This document shows positions 2,760 through 40,110 of a stretch of 64,000 bases of DNA, piece by piece. The position numbers and the translations under genes were made by a program. The stretch lies in contig JACQYS010000008.1 in the NCBI GenBank assembly GCA_016208105.1, positions 124,001-188,000 of the forward strand, read 5' to 3'. The stretch comes from Desulfovibrio sp. (GTDB lineage: Bacteria; Desulfobacterota; Desulfovibrionia; Desulfovibrionales; Desulfovibrionaceae). The number at the start of each line of letters is the position of its first letter. Position 1 is the stretch's first letter. A model generated the notes under the pieces. The model saw only the letters and a program-made list of their open reading frames with translations. It had not been told where the DNA came from and did no database searches.

Positions 2760-2771
2760 AGGGCGTATTTG

Positions 2772-3929: not shown

Positions 3930-3960
3930 GCGAGGAGTCTCCTTGGAGCTGCCGTCCATT

Positions 3961-3989
3961 TTGACAGGCCGTGTCCAGGCTGATATCAT
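3961..3989 (+). promoter_or_regulatory. Sigma-70 type promoter for the formyltransferase gene
   Basis: A perfect -35 TTGACA at 3961-3966, a 17-base spacer and a -10 TATCAT at 3984-3989. The predicted start of transcription, about 7 bases downstream, falls on or next to the ATG at 3996, so the message would be leaderless or nearly so. Prediction from consensus only. Confidence 0.55.
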
Positions 3990-3995
3990 TTAAAT

Positions 3996-6022: not shown

Positions 6023-6028
6023 TGGAAA

Positions 6029-7015: not shown

Positions 7016-7082
7016 GCGCCCTCCGGGCGGACCGTCTTCGGCAAGACGGCCGTATGTGTGGATTATCTCCACGTGTTGAGCA

Positions 7083-12688: not shown

Positions 12689-12689
12689 C

Positions 12690-15188: not shown

Positions 15189-15697
15189 ATTGTTTTTTTT
15201 TCAAGAAATGTTTGAACCTCACCATCATGGGTCAAGACCAGTCTTCCAAATCGGGAGGTGCCTGGTACTTTTGCAGCTATAATGCCTGCTTGAGCATTTT
15301 TCTTTTGAAACCACGAAACAAACGCCCATAAATCGGCATCTACGAATGAATCACCATTAAGAACCATGATGAGACCGTTGCGAATCTCTGGGACCGCCAA
15401 TAGAAGACCACCGCCTGTGCCCAAAGGATAGTCTTCGTGGGAATAGATCAACTTAATTTTTCCATAGGCATCCCCATAGTGTGCCCGGATTGCATCTCCC
15501 ATGTATCCGGTGGACATTACAACCTTGGCAACACCAGAACTTTCGACCAAATCGAGAACAAAATCCAAAAAAGGGCGTCCGGCAACCTCAGCCATGACCT
15601 TGGGCTTTCCAGGGACGGCATCCCGCAGTCTGGAACCCAGGCCACCTGCAAGAATGACTGCGGTTACACTGCGCATGTCCACATCTTGACTCAACAT
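15143..15697 (-). CDS. hddC: HddC-like sugar-1-phosphate nucleotidyltransferase, frame broken at an A9 run
   Basis: Nucleotidyltransferase that would load a heptose-1-phosphate (or hexose-1-phosphate) with GDP or another nucleotide. VILAGGLGSRLRDAVPGKPK is the signature loop; YPLGTGGGLLLA and VLNGDSFVDAD (metal-binding) follow. The frame reads normally to VQTFLEKK and then, just after nine A's, ends in 14 unrelated basic residues and a stop: 184 residues versus roughly 230 for the family. A shift to the -1 frame at the A run joins it in frame to the SIS protein downstream. Programmed slippage, a sequencing error in the homopolymer or a real frameshift mutation would all explain it. Confidence 0.7.
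   Translation of the reverse strand: MLSQDVDMRSVTAVILAGGLGSRLRDAVPGKPKVMAEVAGRPFLDFVLDLVESSGVAKVVMSTGYMGDAIRAHYGDAYGKIKLIYSHEDYPLGTGGGLLLAVPEIRNGLIMVLNGDSFVDADLWAFVSWFQKKNAQAGIIAAKVPGTSRFGRLVLTHDGEVQTFLEKKTMWKRVSCVRSRKRPC
15193..15202 (-). other. A9 slippery run at the hddC/SIS junction
   Basis: Minus-strand G followed by nine A's and then CAA, containing the A-AAA-AAA heptamer used in -1 frameshifting and long enough for transcriptional slippage. Re-reading one A fuses the hddC frame to the SIS frame through an NNVEKSF linker. I looked for a stimulatory hairpin downstream and did not find a convincing one. Confidence 0.45.
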
Positions 15698-24821: not shown

Positions 24822-25925
24822 CTAAATAAAATTGACGTGCATGGGAGGTTCGCCAACTGGATCGGGAAGCTTTGCACCATTATGCTTGATCTCCCAGAGG
24901 GTTTCGTTGACCTTGTGCTGCAGGCACAGGGACACGCAGGTCTTACGCGCATCGAAGCGTTCCGAGCGAAGTTCTTTGAGTACATCCCAGTAATGGTCGC
25001 TTTCCCAAAGGTGCTTAAAGGACACGTCAACAAGATTTCCTATATGAAAACGCTCGAACCTGGGCATAAAGAGTCCGCCGCACGGGGCCACCAGTCCAGA
25101 GCCGCTGAACTGCATCATTATTGGCGGACCGTAACATGGTCCGTAGCAACGTTTTCCGTTCGAAAGGATCTTGGACCACTTGGCCTGAACTGTATACGTA
25201 TCCGTGGAGAGGGCCTCGGCGCTCTTGAGTATCTCCACTAGTCCGAAATACTTGTCGTACTCCACACCGAGATTGCCCTGGTCGTCGTCGCTGCAGTGCT
25301 TGATAACCAGATAGTCAACGCCGAGTTCGCGGCCCAGTCTGGCCAGCGGAAGCACCTGGCTTCCCATGTGCGGCATGAGCACCATTTGCAGACCGATGGT
25401 CACTTCGAGCTTTTTCTCGCGCTTGATCTCAACGCATCTCCGGATGGTTTGGATCACCTTCTCGTAGGCAGCAACGTCGACGCCCATGGTTTGAGCGTAA
25501 ACATCCGGTTCACCGGCCGAGATGTTAAAACGCAAATATGTGAGGGCGGTCAGGATGTCTTCGAGCTTGTCGTCGCGCAGGAGGAAGCCGTTCGTGCCGA
25601 GAGCCATGTCGATGCCGTTGGCCTTGCCGCGAAGGATTGCCTCGTAAAGATGTGGGCTGCAGGTGCTTTCGCCGTCACTGACGAAGCTGATGCCCTTAAC
25701 GCCAATTTCAGCGGCGTCGTCCAAAAAGCGCATGGCCGCATCGCGGTGTATCCGCCGGCCTTCATTCTCCTGCAATTTACCTATGCAATAGACACACTTG
25801 TATGTACACGCCCGTGTGAGGGCGCAATCGATGGTTATAGGGGCTACACGCTCGCCTGCGAGCATAGCCTCGACGCGGTCCTTATGCCAGGCGAGTTTGG
25901 TTCCGTCCAAAACGAGTTCTTTCAC
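24822..25925 (-). CDS. Radical SAM protein with Cys-rich C-terminus (NFI-tail family, copy 1)
   Basis: 367 residues from a GTG at 25925 with GGAGG five bases upstream. The N-terminus (LDGTKLAWHKDRVEAMLAGE) precedes the cluster motif CTYKCVYC at 40-47; FVSDGESTCSPHLYEA and LRFNISAGEPDVYAQTMGV are barrel strands. The C-terminal CYGPCYGPP, GLVAPCGGLF, FHIGNL and CVSLC provide additional Cys ligands of SPASM/twitch type. It ends PPMHVNFI. It is close to full-length similar to the protein at 30346 and more distantly to 33508. Its place between a TylF methyltransferase and glycosyltransferases suggests a sugar substrate. Confidence 0.82.
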   Translation of the reverse strand: MKELVLDGTKLAWHKDRVEAMLAGERVAPITIDCALTRACTYKCVYCIGKLQENEGRRIHRDAAMRFLDDAAEIGVKGISFVSDGESTCSPHLYEAILRGKANGIDMALGTNGFLLRDDKLEDILTALTYLRFNISAGEPDVYAQTMGVDVAAYEKVIQTIRRCVEIKREKKLEVTIGLQMVLMPHMGSQVLPLARLGRELGVDYLVIKHCSDDDQGNLGVEYDKYFGLVEILKSAEALSTDTYTVQAKWSKILSNGKRCYGPCYGPPIMMQFSGSGLVAPCGGLFMPRFERFHIGNLVDVSFKHLWESDHYWDVLKELRSERFDARKTCVSLCLQHKVNETLWEIKHNGAKLPDPVGEPPMHVNFI

Positions 25926-25946
25926 TCAAGCCTCCAGACCTGATTC

Positions 25947-26720
25947 CTACCAGTCCACCACAATGTAACCCGAAGGCACGCTGTGCCAGGCGAATTTGTT
26001 GATCCTCGGACGCTTGCCGAACGTCGCCCGGAAATACTCATCCACAGCTTGGGATTCTCCCCCAAAGGTCACCAAAGCGTACTCGTCCAGAATGATCACT
26101 CCGCCGGGAACCATGAGCGGCGCAAAGTGCTCGAGTGCCACCTTGGTGGGTTCATAGAGGTCACAGTCGATGTTCAAAAGAGCAATACGCAGTCCCGGAC
26201 CCTGATCTTCCACGAATCGGGGGATGGTCTGGCACATGTCTCCCTCGACAAACTGGATGCGGTTGATGTGGCGCAAGTGTTTGTCGGCGTTCATGGCCTC
26301 CTGGGCTTTGTTCAGAACCCTAGGCACGGTTTCGCCACCGAAAAGCCCACCCGGGACGCGCTCCACTTCCGGAAGCTCCTTTCCATCAGCTTCGGATACT
26401 TCGGGGAATCCCTTAAAAGTATCAAAGCCATAGACCACCTTCCGGACATCAGTCGGGCAGAAGATTTCGCAGAGTTTGGCGAATGTGAAGGTGGATGCTC
26501 CCCTGAACACTCCCAGATCCACAATAGCCCCAGGAAGCTCGTGCACTTTCTTAAAGAGTTCATAGTGCACGAGAAAACGGGCAAGGTTGTACCGCGGCGT
26601 GAACACAGGGAAGTTGCGAAACATTTCAAAGGTGGAAAAACCTGTGGAGCCGAAAAGGTCTTCCAACAATTCACGCTGCTTACGTTCGTTCTCGTGGCGA
26701 AGGGAGATGTCGTCTGCCAA
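25947..26720 (-). CDS. TylF/MycF-type sugar O-methyltransferase
   Basis: Macrocin-O-methyltransferase (TylF) family, Mg2+- and SAM-dependent, typically acting on sugar hydroxyls. About 257 residues from a TTG at 26720 that has AGGAG seven bases upstream; an open frame to 26744 lacks a ribosome site. Motifs: GAIVDLGVFRGASTFTFAKL (motif I), VVYGFDTFKGFPEVSE, LLNIDCDLYEPTKVALEHF and VPGGVIILDEYA with the metal-binding acidic residues. It lies between the radical SAM gene and the split transketolase in the same direction, so the sugar it methylates is probably the product of this cluster. Confidence 0.85.
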   Translation of the reverse strand: MADDISLRHENERKQRELLEDLFGSTGFSTFEMFRNFPVFTPRYNLARFLVHYELFKKVHELPGAIVDLGVFRGASTFTFAKLCEIFCPTDVRKVVYGFDTFKGFPEVSEADGKELPEVERVPGGLFGGETVPRVLNKAQEAMNADKHLRHINRIQFVEGDMCQTIPRFVEDQGPGLRIALLNIDCDLYEPTKVALEHFAPLMVPGGVIILDEYALVTFGGESQAVDEYFRATFGKRPRINKFAWHSVPSGYIVVDW

Positions 26721-26781
26721 AATTAGTCTCCTGGGTTGCTTCAAAGCGCGTTACTGAATCATTCGGGGAGAAAATGATTCA

Positions 26782-27708
26782 CTATATTTCTAGCAATCTC
26801 TGGGCCACACGAACAATATTCCCGGGCTCAAGGCCGTAATAAGCCAGAAGATCAGCTTGAGACCCGTATCGGTCTGGAAAGGCGTCGGGGAGGGCGATGC
26901 GTTTGAACCGCTTGGGTGTTGAATAATTCGCTTCCGCAAGCACTTCGGCGCAGGCAGAGCCCAGCCCGCCCAGCAGACTGTTCTCTTCCACCGGCACAAC
27001 AGCCCGGGTCTGCGCTGCCAAGTCCAAAAACAACTCCTGGTCGAAAGGCTTCACGGTTGGAAGATGCAGCACGCTGGATGAAATCCCCATGCCGCTGAGT
27101 CTGTCCGCGCTCTCCAGCACGGGCCCCAAGGTCACGCCCGTGGTAACGAACAGAACATCCGCCCCCTCTCTGTAGACGATGCCCTTGCCTATGGAAAAGC
27201 CTAGCTCGCGCCGGGTGACCACCGGATCGTAGCCTTTGGCAAGGCGTATGTATATGGGGCCGTCCCACTCCACGCTCTGGAGCATGAAATCTGTCATCTC
27301 CTCGGCATCCGCCGGACAGACAACCGCCATCCCGGGCAAAGTCCGCATGAGTGAGATATCCTCAGATGCGATGTGGGTGGGGCCTAGGGGGGCGTATACC
27401 AGCCCTCCACCGTTCCCGATGAGGCGCACCCTTGCTCCTTGCATGCAAACATCGACCGCTATTTGCTCGAAAGCCCGCCTGGTCAAAAAGGTGGCTATGG
27501 TGTTGACGTAAGGAATTTTGCCATCCAAGGCCATTCCGGCGGCCATCCCAACAACGCACTGCTCGCTGATCCCCTCCATGAAGAAACGCTCTGGAAGCTC
27601 CCGGCGGAATTCATCCAGGGTGCCGCTACCCAGATCCGATCCTATAAACACAATGCGTGCATCGGTTTGTGCCAATCGATAGACCATATTGAGGCAGGTC
27701 TTGCGCAT
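26782..27708 (-). CDS. Transketolase, C-terminal subunit
   Basis: 308 residues: the pyrimidine-binding and C-terminal domains of transketolase as a separate chain. I start at ATG 27708 (MRKTCLNMVYRLAQ), with AAGGA upstream and 16 bases after the stop of the N-terminal subunit gene; the longer frame to 27810 overlaps that gene. FMEGISEQCVVGMAAGMAL carries the TPP-activating Glu; VDVCMQGARVRLIGNGGGLVY and PADAEEMTDFM follow. With the next gene it would transfer a two-carbon ketol unit between sugars. Split transketolases occur in archaea and in sugar or secondary metabolite clusters, and the setting here argues against the central pentose phosphate enzyme. Confidence 0.88.
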   Translation of the reverse strand: MRKTCLNMVYRLAQTDARIVFIGSDLGSGTLDEFRRELPERFFMEGISEQCVVGMAAGMALDGKIPYVNTIATFLTRRAFEQIAVDVCMQGARVRLIGNGGGLVYAPLGPTHIASEDISLMRTLPGMAVVCPADAEEMTDFMLQSVEWDGPIYIRLAKGYDPVVTRRELGFSIGKGIVYREGADVLFVTTGVTLGPVLESADRLSGMGISSSVLHLPTVKPFDQELFLDLAAQTRAVVPVEENSLLGGLGSACAEVLAEANYSTPKRFKRIALPDAFPDRYGSQADLLAYYGLEPGNIVRVAQRLLEI

Positions 27709-27724
27709 GATGCTTCCTTGCGGC

Positions 27725-28531
27725 TCACTCGTTTTCCACAGCCAGCCTGAGGCGCTCCAGATCCTGGTCGGTGAGGGAACTTTTGTGATGCCAAGAGAGG
27801 TTGGCTTCAACGAAGTCGATCCCCTTGCCCTTGATGGTGTGGCAGATCAAGGCCGTAGGTTTCCCCGACTCTAGCGGAAGAGAGCTGAAAACGGTCCTCA
27901 AGGCGTCATGGTCGTGCCCGGGCACCTCGGCAACCGAAAAACCGAAAGCGCGCCACTTATCCGCGAACGGCTCGAGCTCCACGACCTCCGAAGTGGAGCC
28001 GTAGGATTGCTGCTTATTGTAGTCCACAATGACCACGAGGTTGTCTGCCCTGTGTTTTGAAGCACTCAGAGCGGCTTCCCAGACCGATCCCTCGTTGCAC
28101 TCACCGTCGCCCATGATCACAAACACTCGTGAAGGCCGACCATCTAGCCGAGCAGCCAGTGCATAGCCCAGCCCTAAGGGCAAACCATGGCCAAGGCTCC
28201 CGGTAGTAGCCTCCACACCTGGAACCTTGTGGAGCTCAGGATGCCCACCGAGCATGGATCCGTGACGACAAAAGCCATCTAAATCGTCCTTAGTGATAAA
28301 CCCTTTCTCCTCCAACACTGCGTAGAGGGCCAAACACCCATGCCCTTTGCTCAAGATACAACGGTCCCGGTCAGGCCATAATGGATTATCAGGATCAACA
28401 CGTAGGACATCATCATAGAGTACTCCGAGGATTTCTATGAGCGAGAGGGCCGGGGCTAGATGCCCCCGGCGGCTGGCGGCCAAAGTCCGCACCACGGACC
28501 GACGGAGCTTAGCAGAAAGGTTGCCGAACAT
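27725..28531 (-). CDS. Transketolase, N-terminal (TPP-binding) subunit
   Basis: 268 residues. The TPP motif is MGDGECNEGSVWEAA followed about 25 residues later by VDYNK. RRGHLAPALSLIEILGVLY and KGHGCLALYAVLEEKG are the usual transketolase substrate/TPP contacts, and GSLGHGLPLGLGYALAARL precedes the motif. It pairs with the downstream C-terminal subunit to make an alpha2beta2 enzyme. It starts 12 bases after the APH-like kinase stop, so it should be co-transcribed with it. Confidence 0.9.
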   Translation of the reverse strand: MFGNLSAKLRRSVVRTLAASRRGHLAPALSLIEILGVLYDDVLRVDPDNPLWPDRDRCILSKGHGCLALYAVLEEKGFITKDDLDGFCRHGSMLGGHPELHKVPGVEATTGSLGHGLPLGLGYALAARLDGRPSRVFVIMGDGECNEGSVWEAALSASKHRADNLVVIVDYNKQQSYGSTSEVVELEPFADKWRAFGFSVAEVPGHDHDALRTVFSSLPLESGKPTALICHTIKGKGIDFVEANLSWHHKSSLTDQDLERLRLAVENE

Positions 28532-28543
28532 AATCCCTGCCTT

Positions 28544-29569
28544 TTACACCATGTGAGGAGGCAATCCACTTCTTACGAAATGCTCGATGCGCGAATACAT
28601 TTCCCGGGCCTTAAGCAGTTGCGTATCCAGAATGTCCGCCTCCGGGGTCGTATCACCCAGAAATCTGCGGCGATCTATTCCCCCAGGCAAAAATACGTTT
28701 AGAAAAATAATACACCAGGCAAGGCCAAAAAGGGGCAGGAGAGCGTCCAACCTCTCAGGGAAGCCCGGTCGCTCAGGGAAAATTTTTTCAAGCGTATCCA
28801 CAAATCCGCCTTTTAGCGATTCACTTAAATCCATGCGTGGATGCAGCAGAAAATCCGCGGCTACTTTCGCAGGATCGTCCCAACCGAAGTACTCGAAGTC
28901 TAAGAAGACCAGGACACCATCCGGACGCTTGATGGCATTATGGAAACCGAAGTCCGAGGGACTTAAAGTACGCCCGTGGTAGGGAAGCAGGCATTGCAGC
29001 CCGAAGTGTGGAGCAAGCAGTTCTTCGGCCCTGACTAGATAGCGCTCCAAAGCTGGATCAAAGGATCCGACAAGCAAGTCGGCAAGTCTCTTCTCCGGAT
29101 GATGTGACAACCGAGAGCGTCGACAACGCAGGTTTGCAGCGATATCCGGCAAACTGAAAAACGCCTCGGACGCCGGTCCCGCTTCGTGCCCAAGAGGGCC
29201 AACTCCGAGATTTTTGAGTAATCGCAAGAAGGAGCAAAATTGCTCTACGTCGGATGGTTCAATGCAGTTTTCGACTTTACATCCTTCAACGAAGCAGTAG
29301 AGAGCACAACCCAACTCGCGGTTGGCTGCTACAGGTCGGGGAACCAACTCCACTCCAGCCACCCACAACCGCTCGAATGCCCCATACTCAACCGTCAGCC
29401 TGTCCCGGCTGTCTCCAGGTAAGTTCCTGTAAACTTTGAGAGTAAAGGTGCGACCGTCAAGACACGTAGCCTTGAGCACTCTACTGTTGCCAACACCTTC
29501 CAGTAGCTCCAAGGAATATGGCGAGCCGATCGTGCGGGTGGCCCAGTTCAGGACCGCGCCATCAACCAT
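28544..29569 (-). CDS. APH-fold phosphotransferase (putative sugar kinase)
   Basis: 341 residues of the aminoglycoside phosphotransferase / choline kinase fold. The catalytic loop is LSPSDFGFHNAI near 230, where Ser replaces the usual His of HGD but the Asp and Asn are kept; the metal-binding FLDFEYFGWDDPAKVAADFL follows. I use ATG 29569, overlapping the HAD stop by eight bases, rather than the longer frame to 29650. Together with the HAD phosphatase and HldE-like protein it could set or remove phosphate on a sugar intermediate. Substrate unknown; drug resistance is unlikely in this setting. Confidence 0.72.
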   Translation of the reverse strand: MVDGAVLNWATRTIGSPYSLELLEGVGNSRVLKATCLDGRTFTLKVYRNLPGDSRDRLTVEYGAFERLWVAGVELVPRPVAANRELGCALYCFVEGCKVENCIEPSDVEQFCSFLRLLKNLGVGPLGHEAGPASEAFFSLPDIAANLRCRRSRLSHHPEKRLADLLVGSFDPALERYLVRAEELLAPHFGLQCLLPYHGRTLSPSDFGFHNAIKRPDGVLVFLDFEYFGWDDPAKVAADFLLHPRMDLSESLKGGFVDTLEKIFPERPGFPERLDALLPLFGLAWCIIFLNVFLPGGIDRRRFLGDTTPEADILDTQLLKAREMYSRIEHFVRSGLPPHMV

Positions 29570-30191
29570 CGACCGCCCCCCTGAGAATAGTATCCGCAAT
29601 CCGGGCCCAGTCCCGACAAAGAATGCCTTTGAACGCTTCAGGAGCTTCACCCTCGGGCATGAAGAGCACCTGCTTGACCCCGAGCGGAAAGGAAGGATTC
29701 AGGAACACCTCAGGCAGATCGTCCACGAAAACAGTGCAGCCAAGACTTGCGATCCTAACAGCCTTTTCCTCGCGAGTGGATTCAAAGAAAACTCTCTCAG
29801 GAGAAAGCGGCGATCCATTTCCCAGGAGGCCATTTTCGGTCATGAAGTCCAACGCGGCTTGACGCAGGTTGAAGCTCTGCCCCCGGTAAGATGCGGTTGG
29901 GGTTTTGTGGCTGACCACATAGACAGGCAATCCCAGGCTTCCCAGACGGAAAAGCAACTCCCGTACCCCTTGGTGGATGGACGCCCTGGCGATATCCCTG
30001 CCATAAACCCTAGCCTGAAGAGAACGCCAGGATATCTCACCGCCAACCTTGCCCTGAATCGCGGCCCGTATCGCTGATTTTGAGGCACCAGTCCCAGTGG
30101 TCAACAGTCTTTCTTCAACTGCTGATTCCAGAAACAGCGATCCATAATCCACCAACGTGTTGTCGAAGTCAAAACCAACAATGCACTTCAT
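29562..30191 (-). CDS. HAD-superfamily phosphatase
   Basis: 209 residues. Motif I is GFDFDNTLVDY with nucleophile D8 and acid/base D10; VYVVSHKT is motif II; VFVDDLPEVF is motif IV. A cap segment lies between about residues 20 and 90. It may dephosphorylate a sugar-phosphate intermediate much as GmhB does in heptose synthesis, but the family assignment alone does not give the substrate. It overlaps the APH-like kinase by eight bases. Upstream, 30192-30345 is an AT-rich gap of 154 bases in which I found no clear promoter. Confidence 0.8.
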   Translation of the reverse strand: MKCIVGFDFDNTLVDYGSLFLESAVEERLLTTGTGASKSAIRAAIQGKVGGEISWRSLQARVYGRDIARASIHQGVRELLFRLGSLGLPVYVVSHKTPTASYRGQSFNLRQAALDFMTENGLLGNGSPLSPERVFFESTREEKAVRIASLGCTVFVDDLPEVFLNPSFPLGVKQVLFMPEGEAPEAFKGILCRDWARIADTILRGAVDG

Positions 30192-30345
30192 TTGACATCT
30201 CCGCTGATCGTGCTGCAGAGGATCGGGATAGAGATACCATCAGGGCAAACGGACAGACTAAAGTGCAACGCAAATCCGCATACACCTGCCATGAATGTGT
30301 ACATTGTAATCATATTATTGCTTCACAATATCTTCTTCTGCTCTT

Positions 30346-31449
30346 TCAAATAAAATTAACGTGCATTGGTGGTTCATCTTTAGATGGCATTACAGCACCT
30401 TCATAACGCACTATGCTCTCCAATGCTTCGTTAACCTTGTGCTGCAGACATAATGTCCCGCACATGGTACGGGCGTCGAATTTCTCTGAGGCTATCATGT
30501 TCATAACTTCCCAGTAGCGATCGCTCTGCCAGATTTCCTTGAAAGATTTATCCGCAATATTGCCGATATGATATTTTTTATACCGACTGTTAAACAACAT
30601 GCCGCAAGGAGCTACCAGACCGGATCCGGAAAGTTGCAAAATAAACGGTGGGCCATAGCATTGTCTGTAGGTCCGCTTACCCTGACTCATCAGCTTAGAC
30701 CATTTGGCTCGCACATGGTAAGCCGGACCCGACATGGATTCCGCCTGGAGCAGAAGATCAGAAAGTTGTTCGTAGGATGAATAGTCCACCCCTAGTTGCC
30801 CTTTCTCGTCGTCTGAGCAGTGTTTTATTACCAGATAATCAACGCCGAGTTCCTCACCCAGCCTCGCCAATGGCAATATCTGGTCCGCAAACTGGGGCAT
30901 GAGAACCATCTGGAGTCCAAGTGTCACCGGCAGCCTTTCTGCTTTCTTCAAGGCAACGGCTTCACGAATCGTTCCCACAACCCTGTGAAAGCATTTCTCC
31001 GAAACACCGTGAATGCTTGCATACTGCGTCGGCTCACCGGCTGAAATATTAAAGCGCAGGTAGGTGAGCGCAGGAAGAATTTCGGGCAACAGCTCGTGAT
31101 TGAGCAAGTAACCATTCGTCCCGAGAGCCATGTCCAACCCAACGGCCTTGCCATGGGTTATCGCCTCGCTAAGATAGGGACTGCAGGTTGACTCGCCGTC
31201 ACTGACCAGGCTCACAGCCTTGACTCCGATCTCAGCGGCATCATCAAGAAAACTGAGAACTACTTCGCGAGTTATGTGTTTTTCGTCATTCTGCTGAAGT
31301 TTCCCGTAGCAATAGATACATTTATACGTGCAGCGCCTGGTGAGAGCCCAATCTATTGTGATGGGGGCGATGCGTTCCCCCCTGAGCCAAGCTTGAACTC
31401 GGTCCGCGTGCCAGGCCAATTTGTGACCGTCTAGTATGAGCTCGCCCAT
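30346..31449 (-). CDS. Radical SAM protein with Cys-rich C-terminus (NFI-tail family, copy 2)
   Basis: 367 residues, the same length as the paralogue at 24822 and alike along its length: LDGHKLAWHADRVQAWLRGE, CTYKCIYC at 40-47, LVSDGESTCSPYL, LRFNISAGEPTQYAS, DYLVIKHCSDDEKGQLGV, CYGPP, GLVAPCGMLF, FDARTMCGTLCLQHKVNEAL and the final PPMHVNFI. Additional C-terminal Cys suggest auxiliary Fe-S clusters. It begins nine bases after the E1 beta stop, which ties it to the E1 pair. Two near-duplicates beside different TPP enzymes suggest related substrates or consecutive steps. Confidence 0.82.
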   Translation of the reverse strand: MGELILDGHKLAWHADRVQAWLRGERIAPITIDWALTRRCTYKCIYCYGKLQQNDEKHITREVVLSFLDDAAEIGVKAVSLVSDGESTCSPYLSEAITHGKAVGLDMALGTNGYLLNHELLPEILPALTYLRFNISAGEPTQYASIHGVSEKCFHRVVGTIREAVALKKAERLPVTLGLQMVLMPQFADQILPLARLGEELGVDYLVIKHCSDDEKGQLGVDYSSYEQLSDLLLQAESMSGPAYHVRAKWSKLMSQGKRTYRQCYGPPFILQLSGSGLVAPCGMLFNSRYKKYHIGNIADKSFKEIWQSDRYWEVMNMIASEKFDARTMCGTLCLQHKVNEALESIVRYEGAVMPSKDEPPMHVNFI

Positions 31450-31457
31450 GTTTACGT

Positions 31458-32492
31458 CTAGGCCAGCGTCTCGCGCACTGCTTGTTTAATGGCTTCCGCT
31501 CCAGGATAGTAGGCCTGTTCCAGAACAGGACTGGCCGGTGTCGGCGCGTCAGGAAACGCTACCCGCTTAAGCGGAGCCTTGAGGGCGAGTGGAATACGCT
31601 CGGCAACTAAGCACCCGATCTCGGCACATGCTCCTCCGGTCCGAGATGCCACATCAGCCACCACGAGCCTGCCGGTCTTACTCAACGATTCAAGGATGGT
31701 ATCAGCATCCAAGGGAGCAATCGTCCTGGGATCAACAACCTCCACACTGACGCCTTCCTGCTCAAGATCACGGGCAGCTTTCAGGGCCTCCAGCACCATG
31801 TAGGACAGCGCCACAACCGTGACGTCCGTGCCCGGATTTCGAATCAACGCCTGCCCCAAGGGAACAGAATAAAGCCCTTCCGGTACGAAACCTATTGTGT
31901 TGTAAAGCCAGCGATGCTCGCAAACCAAAACGGGATTCTCGTCTTCCACTGCGGCGATGAGCATTCCTTTGGCGTCATAGGGCGTTGCGGGCAAGGCAAT
32001 CCGAAGCCCTGGAACATGGAGAAACAACCCGTGCAAGCCCTGGGAATGCTGGCCAGCCGACCCCCATCCTCGGCCGATAATAGAACGCACTACAAGCGGT
32101 ACCCGGACACTCCCTCCGGTCATGTAATGCCATTTGGCCGCATGATTGATAAGCTGGTCCATGCACATAGGCAAAAAATCCATGCGCATGTGAATGAAAA
32201 TTGGTCTCATGCCCGCTGTAGCAGCTCCCACAGCAACTCCAGTCATTCCATTCTCAGCTATCGGGATGTCCATCACTCTTGAGGAGCCAAATTCCTGAGC
32301 CAATCCTTTAGTAGATCCAAAAACTCCACCTGGATCGTCAATCCCCTCCCCCAAAAGGAATACTCGCGAGTCACTTTCTAAGAGTTGCGCCTGAGCCTCT
32401 CGCAGAGCTTCAACATACTTGATGGTACGTTTCCCCTCTTGATGGAAACGTTCCAGATCTTCCTGGTCAACAAGGACTTTTGTCCAAGGCAT
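31458..32492 (-). CDS. TPP-dependent E1 component, beta subunit (AcoB/PdhB-like)
   Basis: 344 residues of the 2-oxo acid dehydrogenase E1 beta type. VFLLGEGIDDPGGVFG, RVMDIPIAENGMTGVAVGAA (activating Glu), VPLVVRSIIGRGWGSAGQHSQGLHG and VEVVDPRTIAPLDADTI are all hallmark segments. There is no lipoyl E2 or E3 gene nearby, so it probably does not feed a dehydrogenase complex; with the alpha subunit it may decarboxylate a 2-oxo acid and pass the acyl carbanion to a sugar aldehyde or ketone. It follows the alpha gene by one base. Confidence 0.88.
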   Translation of the reverse strand: MPWTKVLVDQEDLERFHQEGKRTIKYVEALREAQAQLLESDSRVFLLGEGIDDPGGVFGSTKGLAQEFGSSRVMDIPIAENGMTGVAVGAATAGMRPIFIHMRMDFLPMCMDQLINHAAKWHYMTGGSVRVPLVVRSIIGRGWGSAGQHSQGLHGLFLHVPGLRIALPATPYDAKGMLIAAVEDENPVLVCEHRWLYNTIGFVPEGLYSVPLGQALIRNPGTDVTVVALSYMVLEALKAARDLEQEGVSVEVVDPRTIAPLDADTILESLSKTGRLVVADVASRTGGACAEIGCLVAERIPLALKAPLKRVAFPDAPTPASPVLEQAYYPGAEAIKQAVRETLA

Positions 32493-32493
32493 A

Positions 32494-33495
32494 TTAAGCC
32501 CCTGACATATAATAGACGTTACGCATCACTTCCTCGGCATCTGGGAATGTGCTTTCCTGGGCGAAAAGCACCGCGCTGTCCAGAATTGCAGAAACCTCGC
32601 GATTAATGCTGTCCATAGTAGGCTCGTCGAGAATACCCTCGCGCATGAGTGTGCTGCGAAAAGCCTCTACAGGACATCGATCCATCCATTCGAGAAGCTC
32701 TCCTTTTGGCCTACAACCCTTTTGCCAATCACAGTTTGGCCCCACATGTCCCTGCCAGCGATAGGTGCGGCATTCCAGAAAATAAGGTCCCCTTCCCGCC
32801 CGCGCGTGCCTCACTGCCCTCTCTGCTGCTCTGTACACATCCCATACGTTATTTCCGTCTACCACTTCCGCTGGTGAGCCGAAGCTTGCTGCACGGCGGT
32901 GAATGTCCTGGTGAGGTTGCCTAGCTTTCAGGGGGGAATTGGTGGCGTAAAAATTGTTCTCGCACACAAAGACCACCGGCAATTCCTTAAGGACAGCGAA
33001 ATTAAGGCTCTCTTGAAAAGAACCCTCCTCGCTTGCGCCATCACCAAAAAAAACGACAGAAAGCCGTTTTTCCATTCGAAGCTTGGCGGCTAACGCATGT
33101 CCAACGCCTATTGGGATTCCCCCTCCAACAATAGCGGAAGTACCCAGAATGCCTCGTTCGGGACATGCAGCGTGCATGGAGCCCCCCTTACCGCGACAGC
33201 ACCCAGTGACCTTACCGTAGAATTCCGCAAGAAGAAGCTGCGGATCCATTCCTTTAGCCAAACAATGCCCGTGGCTACGATGAGTGCTGGACAGGTAATC
33301 ATGCGGGGTTAAATGAGCACAAACACCAGCCGCCACTGCTTCCTGGCCGATGCATAAATGAATGGGTGTTTTCATCTCCTGCTGCGGATAAAGACTTATG
33401 ACCCGTTCCTCGAAACGGCGAATGAAAAGCATCATCCGCATGAGGCTCAGTTTTGTCTCAGAGCATCCATCTTCGGAAATAATAGTTTTCGCCAT
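32494..33495 (-). CDS. TPP-dependent E1 component, alpha subunit (AcoA/PdhA-like)
   Basis: 333 residues. The TPP motif GDGASEEGSFQESLNFA is followed at the normal distance by CENNFYATNS. IHLCIGQEAVAAGVCAHL, YLSSTHRSHGHCLAKG and YGKVTGCCRGKGGSMH are typical E1 alpha segments. A C-terminal WQGHVGPNCDWQKGCRPKGELL replaces the usual phosphorylation loop region. It lies 12 bases after the third radical SAM gene and abuts the beta subunit gene, so the two should be made in equal amounts. Confidence 0.88.
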   Translation of the reverse strand: MAKTIISEDGCSETKLSLMRMMLFIRRFEERVISLYPQQEMKTPIHLCIGQEAVAAGVCAHLTPHDYLSSTHRSHGHCLAKGMDPQLLLAEFYGKVTGCCRGKGGSMHAACPERGILGTSAIVGGGIPIGVGHALAAKLRMEKRLSVVFFGDGASEEGSFQESLNFAVLKELPVVFVCENNFYATNSPLKARQPHQDIHRRAASFGSPAEVVDGNNVWDVYRAAERAVRHARAGRGPYFLECRTYRWQGHVGPNCDWQKGCRPKGELLEWMDRCPVEAFRSTLMREGILDEPTMDSINREVSAILDSAVLFAQESTFPDAEEVMRNVYYMSGA

Positions 33496-33507
33496 CGCGA
33501 TGATTCC

Positions 33508-34596
33508 TCAGATGAAATTATCGTGCGGGGCAGGGTTTCGCAGACGCCAGAGATACGCATTGATCTTATCCATCCGGCAATTGCTCCGGCACTCGGTGAT
33601 GTCCAGGTTATGCATCATTTCCAGGGAAATCCGTCTCCTCGCTCCCTCCCAGACCTCGGCGAAGCTATGCTCCTGGATGTTTCCGAGTTTGAACCGCTCG
33701 TCGCCAAGGAAGGCGCTGCAGCTGACAAGATCTCCGGTTGAAGAAACATACGCCCAGAAAAAGGGGGTGGAAAAACATGAGGAGTATGCCTTGGCCCGGC
33801 TGTAATTCTGCATGGTCGTTGCTCTAAAGACCACGGAGAAACGCTCTGTGGACATGGCATCCAAGCGTTCCTTGAGAGACAGGTGCGGTCCGTAGTCGAT
33901 GTTTTCATACTGACGGTTGTGGCTTCTCTTGTGCTGCGAGAATGGCTTTACCACCAGGTAGTCGACCCCTATTTCGTCGCGGCAGATTCTGGCCAAGTCC
34001 TCCACTTCGTGGACGTTCTCCGGCAGTAACAGGATCTGCACCCCGATGCTCACACCCCATCCATTCGCCTGACGGGCTTCCACTGCCCGGCGGAGATTGG
34101 CACGAACCTTGTCAAAATCGCCCTCCGGGCACCTGTGGATGGCCTTATACGTTTCGGGGCTCCCCGCATTACAGCTGACCTTGATCCAACTGACCTTGGA
34201 CAGGCTGCGCTCCACGAAACGGTCGCCAAGCAGCACCCCGTTGGTGGTGAAGGAGGTGTCGATCCCGGCACTGCTGGCTGCCTCGACCATCTCGTTGATT
34301 CTCGTGTTCAGTAGGGGCTCCCCCTCACCAGCGAACATCACACTGCGCACACCCTTCTCGCCCATCTCGGCCAGCCGTTCAACCATGAGCCCCGCGTCCA
34401 ACTGCTTTGGCGCATACCCCATGTAGTCCAAGGCGCAGAAAGTGCACCGGTGATTGCATGCCCCGATGGGGGATATCTCAACGTACAGGGGATAGATTTT
34501 CTTGAGGGCTTCCCAGTCGTCCCCGGCCGCCACCCAGGCGGCCACCCTGTCCGGATGGAGCATCAGCTTGTGCCCGTCGATGGCGAAGGAGTCCAT
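33508..34596 (-). CDS. Radical SAM protein with Cys-rich C-terminus (NFI-tail family, copy 3)
   Basis: 362 residues, a more distant relative of the proteins at 24822 and 30346. It starts IDGHKLMLHPDRVAAWVAAG, has the cluster motif CNHRCTFC at 47-54, FAGEGEPLLNTRIN and KVSCNAGSPETYKAIH in the barrel, DYLVVKPFSQHKRS, then a Cys-bearing C-terminus (CFSTPFFWAYVSSTGDLVSC, FKLGNI, CRSNC) and ends APHDNFI. It comes between the HldE-like gene and E1 alpha in the same direction. Whether the three copies act on one molecule or on three related ones is not decidable here. Confidence 0.8.
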   Translation of the reverse strand: MDSFAIDGHKLMLHPDRVAAWVAAGDDWEALKKIYPLYVEISPIGACNHRCTFCALDYMGYAPKQLDAGLMVERLAEMGEKGVRSVMFAGEGEPLLNTRINEMVEAASSAGIDTSFTTNGVLLGDRFVERSLSKVSWIKVSCNAGSPETYKAIHRCPEGDFDKVRANLRRAVEARQANGWGVSIGVQILLLPENVHEVEDLARICRDEIGVDYLVVKPFSQHKRSHNRQYENIDYGPHLSLKERLDAMSTERFSVVFRATTMQNYSRAKAYSSCFSTPFFWAYVSSTGDLVSCSAFLGDERFKLGNIQEHSFAEVWEGARRRISLEMMHNLDITECRSNCRMDKINAYLWRLRNPAPHDNFI

Positions 34597-34609
34597 ACCG
34601 TTCTGGTCC

Positions 34610-36154
34610 CTACTTTAAAAGCGAAATCAAATGTTTGACCATGGCCGTCTTGTCCATGGAGGTTCTGTTGGACATGGTTCCCACGGCCTGGGCACCAGCA
34701 ATGTTGGCCATTACGCCCACCATCTCCATTGGCGCGCCAAGACGGGCGAGCAGCGAGACGACCGAGAGCACCGCGTCTCCAGCGCCCACCCTGTCCACGA
34801 TGTGTCCGGTGAAGGCCGGCACATCGAAAAATCCCTCATCCGCGCTCCATGCGAGGCAGCCCTGTTTACCGCGCGTGATGAGCATACGCGGACAGTGCAT
34901 CCTCTCGGCAACGCTCGAAACAATGTCGTACAAGGGCCGGACCCGGCTGTGCGCAGCCATGCGAATCTCCTTTTCCGAGATGCATATGAAATCCGCGCGC
35001 GGATACTTGTACACCGTGTTGAATCCCATGTTTCCGGCGTTAACCTGGGTATTGAGGGCCAGAAAAGGAGACTTGTCGATGAGCCAGGAGATGCTTGCCT
35101 CATCGAACATTCCGTGGCCGTAGTCGGCGGCCACGACCAGATCAATCTCGGAGATCATTTCCGAAAGAACTGAAAGAAGCTTCTTTGAATTCTCCGCACT
35201 CTCTTCGCATCCGTTCATGATGTAGACTTCGAAGAGCTTCTGCAGAGGATATGTTTCCACGAAGCGGCGCTTCACTATCGTGGGCGCGTCTGGGAGATAG
35301 AGAAAGTGCGGCCGCACCCCATCGCGGAGATTCTCAAGAATCATCTCCTCGTGGCTCTCGCGTTCACCAAGGAAGGTCACCATCTCCACGTTATTGGTGA
35401 AAGCGGCCAGATGGTTTGCGATGGCGAGAATGCCACCGGCAGCGCGTTCTGCCTCGATGAAACGCGCCGCCAGAATGGGCTCCTTCCCCGATTTCCCCAG
35501 GGTTTCGCAGTAGTGGTGTTCGTCTATGATGGCCTCACCCAGCGCAAGCACGCGAAGCGACGACGCCTTATCAAGGTATTGTACCACCTCGTCCTGGGAG
35601 AACCTGTCGGCGAACCCTCTCAGGTATTCGGCCACGTGGCGTGGGAATGGCGAATAATAGGTATTGATGAGCGATGAGGAACTGAAGACGATATCGTTGG
35701 TGAAATGGACCCGCCCGCCAGTGTTTTCTACGGCCTGAGTCTCGTCGACGATCTTCCCCGAGGGATCGTTGGCTGCGTCTTTATACTCTCCCCCCTTGAC
35801 GTAGATGTCCGGTTTAAGGAGCGCGATGGTCTCTACCGCCGTGGGCCAACGGTTGATCGCCACATAATCGACGCAACCCAGGGCGGCCAGCGCCTCGGCG
35901 CGAAGAGTCTGGGTGAAGGCCGGACGATGAGGCCCTTTGTTCACGTGGGAATCGTCAGTCAGGGTCACCACCAGGATGTCCCCAAGTGACTTGGCCTCTT
36001 CAAGGTAACGGATATGACCGATATGCAACAGGTCGAAAACGCCGTGACAGTGTACCACCACCCGGCCCTTTCGTGTGCGAGCCAACTCCCCGGCCAGATC
36101 GGCCAGATCGAAAATCTTGCTGCTCGCCCGCTGCATCATCGTCCTGCCTTTCAT
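34610..36154 (-). CDS. HldE-like bifunctional protein with reversed domain order (nucleotidyltransferase + PfkB kinase)
   Basis: 514 residues. The N-terminal 160 are a cytidylyltransferase-fold domain of the RfaE domain-II type (CHGVFDLLHIGHIRYLEEAK with the HxGH nucleotide site, then VTLTDDSHVNKGP and IYVKGGEYKD). From about residue 200 there is a ribokinase/PfkB domain ending in VDRVGAGDAVLSVVSLLARL with the catalytic GAGD. E. coli HldE has the kinase first. Such a protein would phosphorylate a heptose or similar sugar at C1 and transfer a nucleotide to it. It overlaps the epimerase stop by four bases. Confidence 0.85.
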   Translation of the reverse strand: MKGRTMMQRASSKIFDLADLAGELARTRKGRVVVHCHGVFDLLHIGHIRYLEEAKSLGDILVVTLTDDSHVNKGPHRPAFTQTLRAEALAALGCVDYVAINRWPTAVETIALLKPDIYVKGGEYKDAANDPSGKIVDETQAVENTGGRVHFTNDIVFSSSSLINTYYSPFPRHVAEYLRGFADRFSQDEVVQYLDKASSLRVLALGEAIIDEHHYCETLGKSGKEPILAARFIEAERAAGGILAIANHLAAFTNNVEMVTFLGERESHEEMILENLRDGVRPHFLYLPDAPTIVKRRFVETYPLQKLFEVYIMNGCEESAENSKKLLSVLSEMISEIDLVVAADYGHGMFDEASISWLIDKSPFLALNTQVNAGNMGFNTVYKYPRADFICISEKEIRMAAHSRVRPLYDIVSSVAERMHCPRMLITRGKQGCLAWSADEGFFDVPAFTGHIVDRVGAGDAVLSVVSLLARLGAPMEMVGVMANIAGAQAVGTMSNRTSMDKTAMVKHLISLLK

Positions 36155-37137
36155 TTGTCGCCTAGGTACCGAAACCAGTCTGCAGTTGCAGTGTGGATGC
36201 TCTCGGAATCCCAGACCGGAGCGTCCGCCCAGTCATTGATGCGTTCGATCATGACGCCCACGCCTTTTTCAAAGGATACCGTGGGTTTCCAGCCGAGGTC
36301 CCGGACTATGGCCGTAATGTCGGCCCAGGTCACCTCCGGCTCGCCGGGCCGTTTTGGGATGTGAACCTTTCCCCCCCCCAGGAGTTTCACAAGCCGATTG
36401 ACGGTTTGCGGATTGCCGCTGCCTACGTTGTAGGCCCGCCCGCTCAGGTCCGACCCTGCAGCGCGAACAAAGGCGTCGACCACGTCTGATACAAAGATGA
36501 AATCCCGGCGCTGAGAGCCGTCCCCCACAACTGTGAAAGGCTTTCCGGCCAGTTTCTGTGCCAGAAAAACCCCGAAAACCGCTCCGTAGGCCCCGGTGGT
36601 CCGAGACCTCGGGCCATAGACATTAAAGAGCCTCAGCGAGAGCACATTCATCCCGTATGTCTGTCCCCAATGCATAACGTATTCCTCACCCACTCGCTTT
36701 GTCAGAGCGTAGGGATACATCGGCCTGACGGGGGCATCTTCACCAGTGGGGTAGACGTCCGGAATGCCATAGCACGAGGACGAGGCCGCATAGACGAATC
36801 GTTTGGCACCGGCGGTTCTGGCAGCCTCAAGCACGCAGGCTGTCCCATCTGCGTTTGATCTGTGGTAGCGAAGGGGATCCTTGATGGAAGGCACAATGTC
36901 CGCCAAACCCGCGAGGTGAAACACCCAATCTGCGCCTTCGAAGGCCTCGGCAAGGCCAGCCTCGTCGGTGACCGAAACGCGGGCTAAGCGCGCTCCCCGC
37001 TTCATCGCCGCAGCCAGGTTGCTTTCACGCCCGGTTGAAAGGTCGTCAACTACCACCACTTCATGCCCTTCGCCGATCAGGCGGTCGGCCAAGTGACTCC
37101 CGATAAAACCAGCACCACCGGTTATGATCGAACGCAC
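36151..37137 (-). CDS. NAD-dependent nucleotide-sugar epimerase/dehydratase
   Basis: 328-residue extended short-chain dehydrogenase. ITGGAGFIGSHLAD is the NAD-binding loop, AASSSCYG gives the catalytic Ser/Thr segment, and YPYALTK is the YxxxK catalytic pair. RLFNVYGPRSRTTGAYG and GDGSQRRDFIFVSDVVDAF are UDP-sugar binding segments of GalE/ADP-heptose-epimerase-like enzymes. It is the first gene of the presumed operon down to 24.8 kb and is coupled to the HldE-like gene by an ATGA overlap, so it may epimerise the sugar nucleotide that protein makes. The 139 bases to 37276 hold no gene. Confidence 0.87.
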   Translation of the reverse strand: MRSIITGGAGFIGSHLADRLIGEGHEVVVVDDLSTGRESNLAAAMKRGARLARVSVTDEAGLAEAFEGADWVFHLAGLADIVPSIKDPLRYHRSNADGTACVLEAARTAGAKRFVYAASSSCYGIPDVYPTGEDAPVRPMYPYALTKRVGEEYVMHWGQTYGMNVLSLRLFNVYGPRSRTTGAYGAVFGVFLAQKLAGKPFTVVGDGSQRRDFIFVSDVVDAFVRAAGSDLSGRAYNVGSGNPQTVNRLVKLLGGGKVHIPKRPGEPEVTWADITAIVRDLGWKPTVSFEKGVGVMIERINDWADAPVWDSESIHTATADWFRYLGDK

Positions 37138-38322: not shown

Positions 38323-40110
38323 ATGTCATCTCTCGCCATCTTCCAGGAACTGGGTATTCTGGCGATTGGGTCAAGGACTGCGGGATCGGTACCTATCGTA
38401 AATGGCCTCCATGTCTTCCACCACCACAGTGCCCTTTGGGATTATTGCGATCCCAAGCTGGCCAACCCTTTCGTTCCAGGTGCCCAAGATTCCGAGGTTT
38501 TCGCCACCCTACCACCAGGAACCACCCTGACCGAGGCGATGGCACACAGCCGTTTCCTGGTGTTCATTGGTGCCCGCTCTTCACCAGAGCTGCAGGCTGC
38601 CCTCGCTCGGACGGATGGTGTTTGCCTGATTTTCGAGCCAGATTTGGATCAAACTGAGGCTTTTCTATCAGATGCCAAGCCCAGTGAATTAGCCCAAAAG
38701 GCAGTCTTTATTATTGGAGGCGATCCCGACTCCCTTGATGTCCCTTTGCTTTCAATGCTGCCGGAGGATGTGTGCCGCCTGGGCTATCCGCTGTTTTTCG
38801 TCCTGGACGGCCTGGCTGACGTCCTGCCGAAGTACATCCAGCGCGTGGAGGAGTTGATCGAACTTTTTTACTACCGCAACTTCATCTACCAATTGGACAG
38901 CCAGGAGAACGTGCGCGGCCTTCCTTTGCGCCCGATGACCCGCGACTACATCTACGACAGGCTCAAGCACCAGTATGAAAATTTAGAGCCTTGCCTCCGA
39001 TCTGGGACACTCGAAGACCTTCTTGGCGCCTTCACCGGGCACACGGCCATACTCGTAGCTGCCGGACCGGCCCTCCTGGACTGTTTGAAATTCATTCGTG
39101 AGAACCTGGACCGGACAGTCGTTATCGCGGTAAACAATGCCCTCAAGCCTCTTCTTGCAGAGGGTATCGAACCCCACTTTGTGGTCATTAACGACACTTC
39201 AGTGGATTCTGAGGTCGGCTTTACCGGGCTTTCCCCGCTCAAAAGAGCCTCCCTCGTGGCCCACTGCCTCTGCGGGACTGGCGACTCGATCTTCCCCAAC
39301 ATTTATTTCTTCGGTAACTTTCCGGGCCAGCCCTTTCCAAAGCGTAAATCACTCCTGCTCCACGGCTCGGTGATCACCACCGCATTCTCCCTGGCCGAAT
39401 ACTTAGGCTGCACAAAGGCCGTCCTCGCCGGTGTCCAACTGGCCTCACCTGACCCAATGACCATGAACTACGCCAAGGGAAGCGCCCATGAGGCACGGTG
39501 CTCAGAAGTGGTTGAGACAGATCTGCCAGGACGCTGGCCGCAACTCTATCCAGTAACAACAGCTGACAACAGAACGTTCTACACAACCCTCAATTTTTTC
39601 GACGCTGCTCAATGGTTCGCCGATCGTATCCGCATGGCCTCGCTTGAAGTCGTCAACCTCTGTCCAGCCAGCATCCTCAAAGGACCTGGTATTGAGTTTG
39701 ATCCTTCCCCCCCCCTACCAGAGGCCCCCGGCTTGGCCGCAAAGCTTGCTACCTTGTCACATACTGACATCTCGGCAAGGCGAGGGAAAGTGCTGGATTA
39801 TTTAAGCAAGGAAATGGCGCGATGGAAGAAGAAGCAACTAGCAGCCAGGGAGGCTGCTAAAAACCTGAACGCAGCCACATCCTTTATAACCGGCTGCGAC
39901 AACGACAATACTTCATTTATGCTGCAACGTTTTGAAGATTTCGACAATATGCATTTTCATACGACATTCTTTTGTGCTCGTTCTGACAAGGAACGCGCCG
40001 ACGGCGCCGTCTACTTCCTTGAACGCATGTCGCGGATGTGTACCGCCCTGCTTAAGATTCTCCTTGAGCAGCACCGCAGGATCGCCGCCATGCAAGAGCG
40101 CACCGGATAA
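38323..40110 (+). CDS. maf: Maf-family flagellin glycosyltransferase (DUF115 / MAF_flag10)
   Basis: 595 residues with the motility-accessory-factor core. TAILVAAGPALLDCLKFI near 245 is the AGPSL-type motif, VIAVNNALKPLLAEGIEPHFVVINDTS is the rest of the sialyltransferase-like domain, and NIYFFGNFPG then SVITTAFSLAEYLGCTKAVLAGVQLA follow. Maf proteins attach pseudaminic or legionaminic acid to flagellin Ser/Thr in the cytoplasm. Its presence in the same island as pseB/C/G/I is the strongest evidence that the sugar is used on flagella. The ATG at 38323 has no obvious ribosome site. It ends 13 bases from the convergent epimerase. Confidence 0.85.
   Translation: MSSLAIFQELGILAIGSRTAGSVPIVNGLHVFHHHSALWDYCDPKLANPFVPGAQDSEVFATLPPGTTLTEAMAHSRFLVFIGARSSPELQAALARTDGVCLIFEPDLDQTEAFLSDAKPSELAQKAVFIIGGDPDSLDVPLLSMLPEDVCRLGYPLFFVLDGLADVLPKYIQRVEELIELFYYRNFIYQLDSQENVRGLPLRPMTRDYIYDRLKHQYENLEPCLRSGTLEDLLGAFTGHTAILVAAGPALLDCLKFIRENLDRTVVIAVNNALKPLLAEGIEPHFVVINDTSVDSEVGFTGLSPLKRASLVAHCLCGTGDSIFPNIYFFGNFPGQPFPKRKSLLLHGSVITTAFSLAEYLGCTKAVLAGVQLASPDPMTMNYAKGSAHEARCSEVVETDLPGRWPQLYPVTTADNRTFYTTLNFFDAAQWFADRIRMASLEVVNLCPASILKGPGIEFDPSPPLPEAPGLAAKLATLSHTDISARRGKVLDYLSKEMARWKKKQLAAREAAKNLNAATSFITGCDNDNTSFMLQRFEDFDNMHFHTTFFCARSDKERADGAVYFLERMSRMCTALLKILLEQHRRIAAMQERTG

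Follow-up and report, generated by a model that had tools for sequence, protein, structure and literature searches.

A few antibiotics are known to carry sugars with two-carbon branches made by E1-like enzymes. The E1-like pairs AviB1/AviB2 of avilamycin and Pau11/Pau12 of paulomycin have been proposed to transfer a two-carbon unit of pyruvate onto a keto sugar (according to the passages drawn on here from PMC4425429 and PMC4753412). In rifamycin synthesis, the two-chain transketolase Rif15a/b adds a ketol unit from fructose 6-phosphate to a ketone (passages of PMC6002545), and in butirosin synthesis the radical S-adenosylmethionine (SAM) enzyme BtrN is described as 2-DOIA dehydrogenase (passages of PMC10991966). 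Here we analyse a run of twelve genes of Desulfovibrio sp. in which an E1 pair, a two-chain (split) transketolase and three radical SAM proteins stand behind a domain-reversed HldE-like enzyme. The run lies in the window, i.e. the whole stretch of 64,000 nucleotides that was analysed, which corresponds to positions 124001-188000 of contig 8 in a genome of 4.18 Mb (99.99% complete).

Organization of the run and distribution of its modules

The run occupies positions 24822-37137 of the window, entirely on the minus strand, and consists of the following features:

36151..37137, minus: EPI, GalE-like extended SDR (short-chain dehydrogenase/reductase) sugar epimerase
34610..36154, minus: HLDE, domain-reversed HldE-like protein with N-terminal (cytidylyltransferase-like) nucleotidyltransferase and C-terminal PfkB kinase, anchor of the pathway
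33508..34596, minus: RS3, radical SAM protein, C-terminal region of twitch type (one cluster, four Cys), HxNFI tail
32494..33495, minus: E1a, thiamine diphosphate (TPP) E1 alpha subunit, module A
31458..32492, minus: E1b, E1 beta subunit, module A
30346..31449, minus: RS2, radical SAM protein directly after E1b, with four-Cys region, extra conserved Cys and HVNFI tail
30192..30345, minus: 154-base gap between RS2 and HAD, the only gap above 50 bases in the run and the border of modules A and B
29562..30191, minus: HAD, phosphatase of module B; DxDxT, Ser, Lys and DD motifs invariant in a 20-row alignment
28544..29569, minus: APH, small-molecule kinase of choline-kinase/APH fold, module B; best start 29569
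27725..28531, minus: TKN, N-terminal transketolase chain (split enzyme), module B
26782..27708, minus: TKC, C-terminal transketolase chain (split enzyme), phosphate-site residues altered; module B; best start 27708
25947..26744, minus: TYLF, TylF-type methyltransferase, at the place where many module B loci have methyltransferase MT220
24822..25925, minus: RS1, radical SAM protein with HVNFI tail, sister of the gene after TylF in locus L095

The original prediction, made from the sequence alone, described twelve same-strand genes of named families with short gaps, and this description is accurate: all open reading frames are intact and 10 of the 11 junctions measure at most 37 bases (from RS1 towards EPI: 21, 37, 16, 12, overlap, 154, 8, 1, 12, 13 and -4 bases). 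The listed starts of TKC and APH look overlong and were replaced by those given above. Pfam and NCBIfam name the epimerase, both HldE halves, three Radical_SAM plus SPASM proteins, E1 alpha, E1 beta, Transketolase_N, Transket_pyr/C and TylF; HAD and APH gave no Pfam match at 1e-3. A separate promoter at the module junction was considered and is not claimed, since promoter and terminator scans showed no excess over shuffled sequences (6 versus 8.7 and 14 versus 15.4, respectively). Rfam at gathering scores returned no RNA elements.

Related loci were collected with an alignment of nine domain-reversed HldE proteins, run against genomes of 84,980 species. The best 80 of 526 confirmed relatives were analysed. 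They were chosen solely by the domain-reversed HldE, include close pairs and span many phyla as well as two archaeal bins; one bin (L075) is titled Klebsiella pneumoniae and looks like a mislabelled metagenome bin. Family profiles were built from the very loci scored (at most 60 members each) and run on all loci. Presence cut-offs in the locus tables, the tree counts and the whole-genome control were chosen by us from score lists.

In these 80 loci, the E1 pair occurs 18 times and the split transketolase pair 38 times, with both in a single locus (L024) and neither in 25, which were retained in the co-occurrence tables (p 3e-5). RS3 is found in 12 loci and an SDR oxidoreductase (SDRa) in 52, never together (p 5e-7). 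HAD or APH accompany the transketolase in 28 of its 38 loci versus none of the 18 E1 loci, zinc alcohol dehydrogenase in 21 of 38 versus 2 of 18, and MT220 is present in 25 of the 38. Among all 146 annotated stretches of a wider set, some of them repeated or of one genome, RS3 and SDRa occur together in none, and E1 and transketolase together only in the window and L024.

Since the loci are kin, the associations were also examined on a HldE tree of 88 rows, where the E1/transketolase counts left out the 25 loci with neither pair and two with both. The tree requires at least 12 changes between E1 and transketolase, at least 9 between RS3 and SDR, and 3 between EPI and the GSU2086 family. Repeated exchange is thus evident for both the TPP enzyme and the oxidoreductase. 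HAD/APH go with the transketolase in 6.9 of 8 independent tree pairs and never against it (median p 0.016).

As a whole-genome control, 297 genomes of the class were searched, with match lists cut at E <1e-80 or E <1e-90. Matches were considered strong, i.e. of window type, from 404 bits (E1a) or 336 bits (TKC) upwards, both cuts being placed at visible score gaps. HldE was found no more than 10 kb from window-type E1a at 7 of 7 places, and from window-type TKC at 29 of 36. All 57 places listed for lower-scoring E1a were compared with HldE positions, and only one is near HldE (G276, L151), which is a module A locus by profile. For lower-scoring TKC, 14 of the places were compared, leaving out fragments of 257 bits (G129) and 240 bits (G113) that both come from module B loci; three of the 14 are near HldE (one in G278, two in G190). 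HldE is also present in 34 of 35 strong-TKC genomes, and in the exception, G048, a diverged HldE is located close to TKC. Co-occurrence of the predicted gene set therefore holds for each half together with the reversed HldE, but not for the set as a whole, E1 and transketolase being joined in 1 of 80 loci.

At the chosen cut-offs, the window's genome is the only one of the 297 with both strong E1a and strong TKC. By profile, G278 has both modules, too. Its module A (L147) and a diverged module B (L137) are on different contigs and have one HldE apiece, an arrangement that argues for two products. Because the E1 pair and the split transketolase alternate elsewhere, and are apart in G278, the run of the window is module A (EPI-HldE-RS3-E1a-E1b-RS2) and module B (HAD-APH-TKN-TKC-TylF-RS1) in tandem. 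Grouping of all twelve genes into one pathway, as originally proposed, is not supported as a conserved unit for the same reason, and HAD and APH go with the transketolase module.

Front end and enzymes of the modules

In comparison with canonical HldE, the order of kinase and adenylyltransferase is reversed, and the protein reaches 164 bits, below the curated cut-off of 521. EPI stands immediately before HldE in 29 of the 33 loci having both. EPI was detected in 33 and the GSU2086 family in 19 of the 80 loci, both together in none. In other loci, SIS resembles GmhA and has conserved serines that we take to form the phosphate site (in the SIS rows of the residue comparison, the letter shown as "window" is that of an Azospirillum protein). 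SIS of L014 scores 90 bits, under the curated GmhA cut-off of 209. Three other GmhA-like genes are found elsewhere in the window's genome, and the isomerase for the run would have to come in trans, from elsewhere in the genome. Two further arrangements were seen. Module A loci L022 (9473-12582) and L023 (7459-10601) contain two HldE-like regions in tandem, the second region of L022 being a nucleotidyltransferase half in the same open frame as a GSU2086-family region. In the window, a divergent SIS overlaps the end of a short NTP_transferase gene (14475-15697), possibly a separate sugar-activation pair.

Homology of the E1 pair to 2-oxo acid dehydrogenase E1 is present, with TIGR03182 at 319 bits (cut-off 393.85) and NF006667 at 290 bits (cut-off 321), neither cut-off being reached. 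E1 without E2/E3 had been predicted, and search of the whole genome, which covered E2 only, indeed gave no match to PF00198; the same search was positive in 10 of 14 genomes. The E1 pair therefore cannot supply an ordinary dehydrogenase complex, and a role in a pyruvate dehydrogenase complex was rejected. Six further genomes have strong E1a, and four of these also lack E2, among them G278, which is 81% complete. In the remaining two, E2 adjoins a second, lower-scoring E1a about 1.2 Mb from the cluster (G171) or lies about 0.36 Mb from it (G117).

The module A order HldE, RS3, E1a, E1b and RS1/RS2-type gene recurs in L022, L147, L149 and L150, with SIS and/or a GSU2086 gene in between. An RS2-type gene follows E1b in six of the eight module A loci of the class, namely in the window, L022, L147, L149 (there split into two pieces), L150 and L151; the exceptions are L023 and L148. 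A plasmid of Azospirillum oryzae carries a run of epimerase, HldE, SIS, SDR, E1a, E1b, two aminotransferases and an RS2-type radical SAM gene. Aminotransferases were considered as a part of module A (Fisher p 0.004) and rejected, the tree test being not significant.

Residues of the split transketolase were counted in 60 of 78 collected members. Positions that presumably serve TPP binding and catalysis are retained: H26, H66, H261, H473, D155, E160, N185 and E411 in 60 of 60, H100 in 53 of 60. At positions assumed to contact phosphate or acceptor, R358 is kept in all 60, S385 is replaced, and H461 is changed to Gly (59/60), D469 to Leu (54/60) and R520 to Lys (59/60). An ordinary split transketolase (6yaj) retains His, Asp and Arg at the last three positions. 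In APH, the kinase Asp/Asn/Asp are invariant in a 25-row alignment; its model has a pLDDT of 92.4, and a search of the PDB with it ranks corramycin phosphotransferase and choline kinase LicA first. Module B of L095 and L117, which are one locus present in two collections, ends with TylF and RS1, and in many others MT220 and a different radical SAM gene with the tail stand at the end. Elsewhere in the genome (G000, C25:35327-36651), two genes may form a second transketolase-like pair, the C-terminal part being 33% identical.

The three radical SAM proteins had been described as related and sharing NFI tails. All three do end with NFI, and RS1 and RS2 are 63% identical; relatedness is much looser for RS3, with 28-29% identity to either. 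RS1 is sister to the L095 copy (support 100/99), and the placement of RS2 in the tree is unsettled. Recent tandem duplication as the origin of RS1 and RS2 is not supported, because RS1 groups with the L095 copy. RS3, RS1/RS2 and RSc represent three divergent families with a common HxxF(I/V) terminus that abuts the stop codon: Phe followed by Ile or Val ends 35 of 35 RS3-type, 27 of 27 RSc-type and 10 of 11 RS1/RS2-type distinct sequences, and His at -5 is present in the same ones. Tucking of the RS3 tail into the active site was considered and is not proposed, the tail of the model having a pLDDT below 50.

CxxxCxxC and the four auxiliary cysteines are invariant in 35 of 35 distinct RS3 sequences. 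An extra cysteine, C211, occurs in 11 of 11 RS1/RS2-type sequences and could act as hydrogen donor in epimerisation; RS3 has an extra cysteine (184) in 29 of 35, and RSc has two. In both profile and fold searches, the top match of RS3 is DesII. It is followed by MoaA and BlsE in the profile search, whereas in the fold search the peptide maturases SkfB and SuiB come ahead of BlsE. BtrN matches RS3 over the auxiliary region with 35 bits. Distant relatives of RS3 occur in phages (MW202801.1, 19661-20701; LR756501.1, 323215-324180), with 22-23% identity over 90-98% of length, to the last residue. One of the two adjoins an annotated glycosyltransferase.

Proposed chemistry and rival readings

It is a real possibility, held here tentatively, that the run holds two alternative two-carbon-extension modules behind one shared nucleotide-sugar front end, serving a surface or flagellin glycan. 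We infer all substrates and the order of steps in the following scheme. To judge from their families, a GmhA-like isomerase acting in trans and the reversed HldE would make an activated heptose-like sugar, whose stereochemistry EPI would set. RS3 would then use radical SAM chemistry to turn an alcohol into a carbonyl; in most other loci, an NAD-type SDR probably takes this step. In module A, E1a-E1b would move acetyl from pyruvate onto that carbonyl. In module B, the split transketolase would add a ketol unit from a ketose, aided by APH kinase and HAD phosphatase, and the methyltransferase would cap the product. RS2 would work after module A and RS1 after module B, perhaps epimerising the product by means of the extra conserved cysteine. 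Mutual exclusion of RS3 and SDR is an indirect indication that RS3 may oxidise a sugar or cyclitol alcohol in a BtrN-like manner. Since BtrN is a dehydrogenase, a swap of RS3 with an SDR oxidoreductase would make sense.

Several observations weigh against this scheme. MoaA and the peptide maturases match RS3 about as well as the sugar enzyme BlsE does, BtrN has only fold rank 40, and the tail of the RS3 model is of low confidence. Of 56 columns conserved in the family, the kinase half of HldE shares just 27 with E. coli HldE, and the sugar could therefore be other than a heptose. GmhA-like SIS is present in just 48 of the 80 loci, the SIS nearest to the run (14475-15188) is weak and adjoins another nucleotidyltransferase gene, and no GmhA-like gene in the genome meets the curated cut-off (best 204 of 209 bits). 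Among the 25 loci with neither TPP pair, the contig ends less than 5 kb downstream of HldE in just 8; in the remaining 17 it extends further, and the pathway can therefore also run without either pair, or with unrecognised enzymes. On the tree, the link of MT220 to module type is borderline (5.4 versus 0.2, median p 0.06), and that of aminotransferase and SIS is not significant. Finally, GC content at third codon positions is 0.51-0.58 in E1a, E1b, RS2, HAD and APH versus 0.64-0.75 in the other seven genes, and this shift does not coincide with the module border.

Contiguity of twelve open genes on one strand, with one shared HldE and one RS3, would also fit one long pathway, in which the two TPP enzymes work one after the other on a single sugar and yield a doubly extended, methylated product. 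A precedent might be seen in L024, where E1 is followed, 2.8 kb on, by a transketolase pair. L024, however, lacks HAD and APH, and its TKC scores 239 bits versus 414-505 for 35 of the 38. Such a pathway is unlikely given that the two modules share just that 1 locus of 80 and that G278 keeps them apart, each with a HldE. Moreover, each module has its own terminal radical SAM gene, relatives of which travel with that module in other genomes. Alternatively, the TPP enzymes might stand at the front and build a ketose phosphate, which SIS and HldE would convert to an activated sugar by isomerisation, phosphorylation and nucleotidyl transfer; the model for this is lincomycin octose synthesis with its transaldolase, isomerase, kinase, phosphatase and nucleotidyltransferase. 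We find this doubtful, although SIS, PfkB kinase, HAD phosphatase, nucleotidyltransferase and aminotransferase all occur across the loci and parallel the assignments of LmbR, LmbN, LmbK, LmbO, LmbP and LmbS (passages of PMC4351081). HAD/APH are missing from all 18 E1 loci, and HAD is therefore not a general phosphatase. The transketolase has lost phosphate-site residues, and E1 with pyruvate would be expected to give a 1-deoxyketose, not convertible to an aldose by a GmhA-like isomerase.

That E1 and transketolase are unrelated metabolic genes brought close by chance in a mixed glycan island is hardly credible. Many sugar genes for other products do surround them, including a pseudaminic-acid-like set. 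Nevertheless, the proximity of window-type E1a and TKC to HldE, recurrence of the same neighbours in many phyla and occurrence of the transketolase module in an archaeal bin (L060) refute chance for each module; it could apply only to the joining of the two.

The preferred reading, two alternative modules on a shared front end, can be extended to a bolder and, as a whole, improbable proposal. It would comprise an undescribed, widespread pathway family that makes activated sugars of higher carbon number. Donor (E1 with pyruvate or split transketolase with ketose) and oxidant (twitch radical SAM or SDR) would be swappable on the reversed-HldE chassis, and both donor cassettes would act here in series to give a doubly extended sugar. 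We know of no glycan with a doubly extended sugar of this kind.

Genomic surroundings and comparison with known systems

A sugar context is apparent in HldE-linked loci, which also contain glycosyltransferases, sugar oxidoreductases and aminotransferases. In the window, glycosyltransferase-like genes adjoin the run, and one further gene is a possible user of its sugars:

38323..40110, plus: MptE-like (PF01973) protein, with a relative also by module A in L147

We take the MptE-like protein to be probably a Maf-type flagellin glycosyltransferase. Since glycosyltransferase-like, MptE-like and pseudaminic-acid-like genes surround the run, its sugars are most likely destined for flagellin or another surface glycan. 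The pseudaminic-acid-like set (1-9352; cytidylyltransferase, NeuB, DegT aminotransferase, Polysacc_synt_2 and B12-binding radical SAM protein) borders the island. The window contains three B12-binding radical SAM genes and one further SPASM radical SAM gene (4592-6022, 9445-10839, 17772-20054 and 11534-12718), a high density for a glycan island.

The same branching idea that is known from antibiotics, together with a transketolase version of it, appears to recur across many bacterial phyla, usually beside the same unusual activating enzyme. If this is true, orphan E1 and split-transketolase genes in sugar clusters would be explained and unknown higher-carbon surface sugars predicted. The loci would also represent a natural experiment, in which radical SAM and SDR enzymes fill one step and pyruvate- and ketose-using TPP enzymes another. 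Interest thus lies in the parts over the whole: modules swappable on a common chassis, both of them in one run here. That the original prediction knew of no described pathway with this set agrees with our search of the open-access literature, which found no description of this gene set.

Likenesses to described systems are partial. With the GmhA-HldE pathway to ADP- or GDP-heptose the loci share SIS isomerase, PfkB kinase and cytidylyltransferase-like domains; here the domains are reversed, scores fall far below curated cut-offs and the kinase motif is changed. Transaldolase, the C-C enzyme of lincosamide octose, was not found among the window genes given to Pfam (no genome-wide search was made). 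YerE of yersiniose resembles the E1 pair in forming a TPP-dependent acetyl branch on a bacterial surface sugar (passages of PMC4753412), but is a single TPP-dependent flavoprotein, and no gene of YerE type is present among the window genes given to Pfam. RS3 has in common with BtrN and DesII the CxxxCxxC core and four auxiliary cysteines, with DesII as best match and BtrN matching over the auxiliary region. It differs in its conserved HxNFI terminus, and the fold matches have about 20% identity. Rif15 is likened to the split transketolase by description, not sequence; both consist of two chains, and the acceptor of Rif15 is rifamycin S.

The closest parallel to module A, likewise drawn by description and not by sequence, is provided by AviB1/AviB2 and Pau11/Pau12. 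These pairs branch at C4 a keto hexose already attached to the molecule, whereas the pair of the window stands with a reversed HldE and a radical SAM protein or SDR. What they share is an E1 alpha/beta pair in a sugar cluster, with pyruvate as the proposed donor of the antibiotic pairs (passages of PMC4425429), and in the window, too, the E1 pair of a sugar cluster is found without E2.

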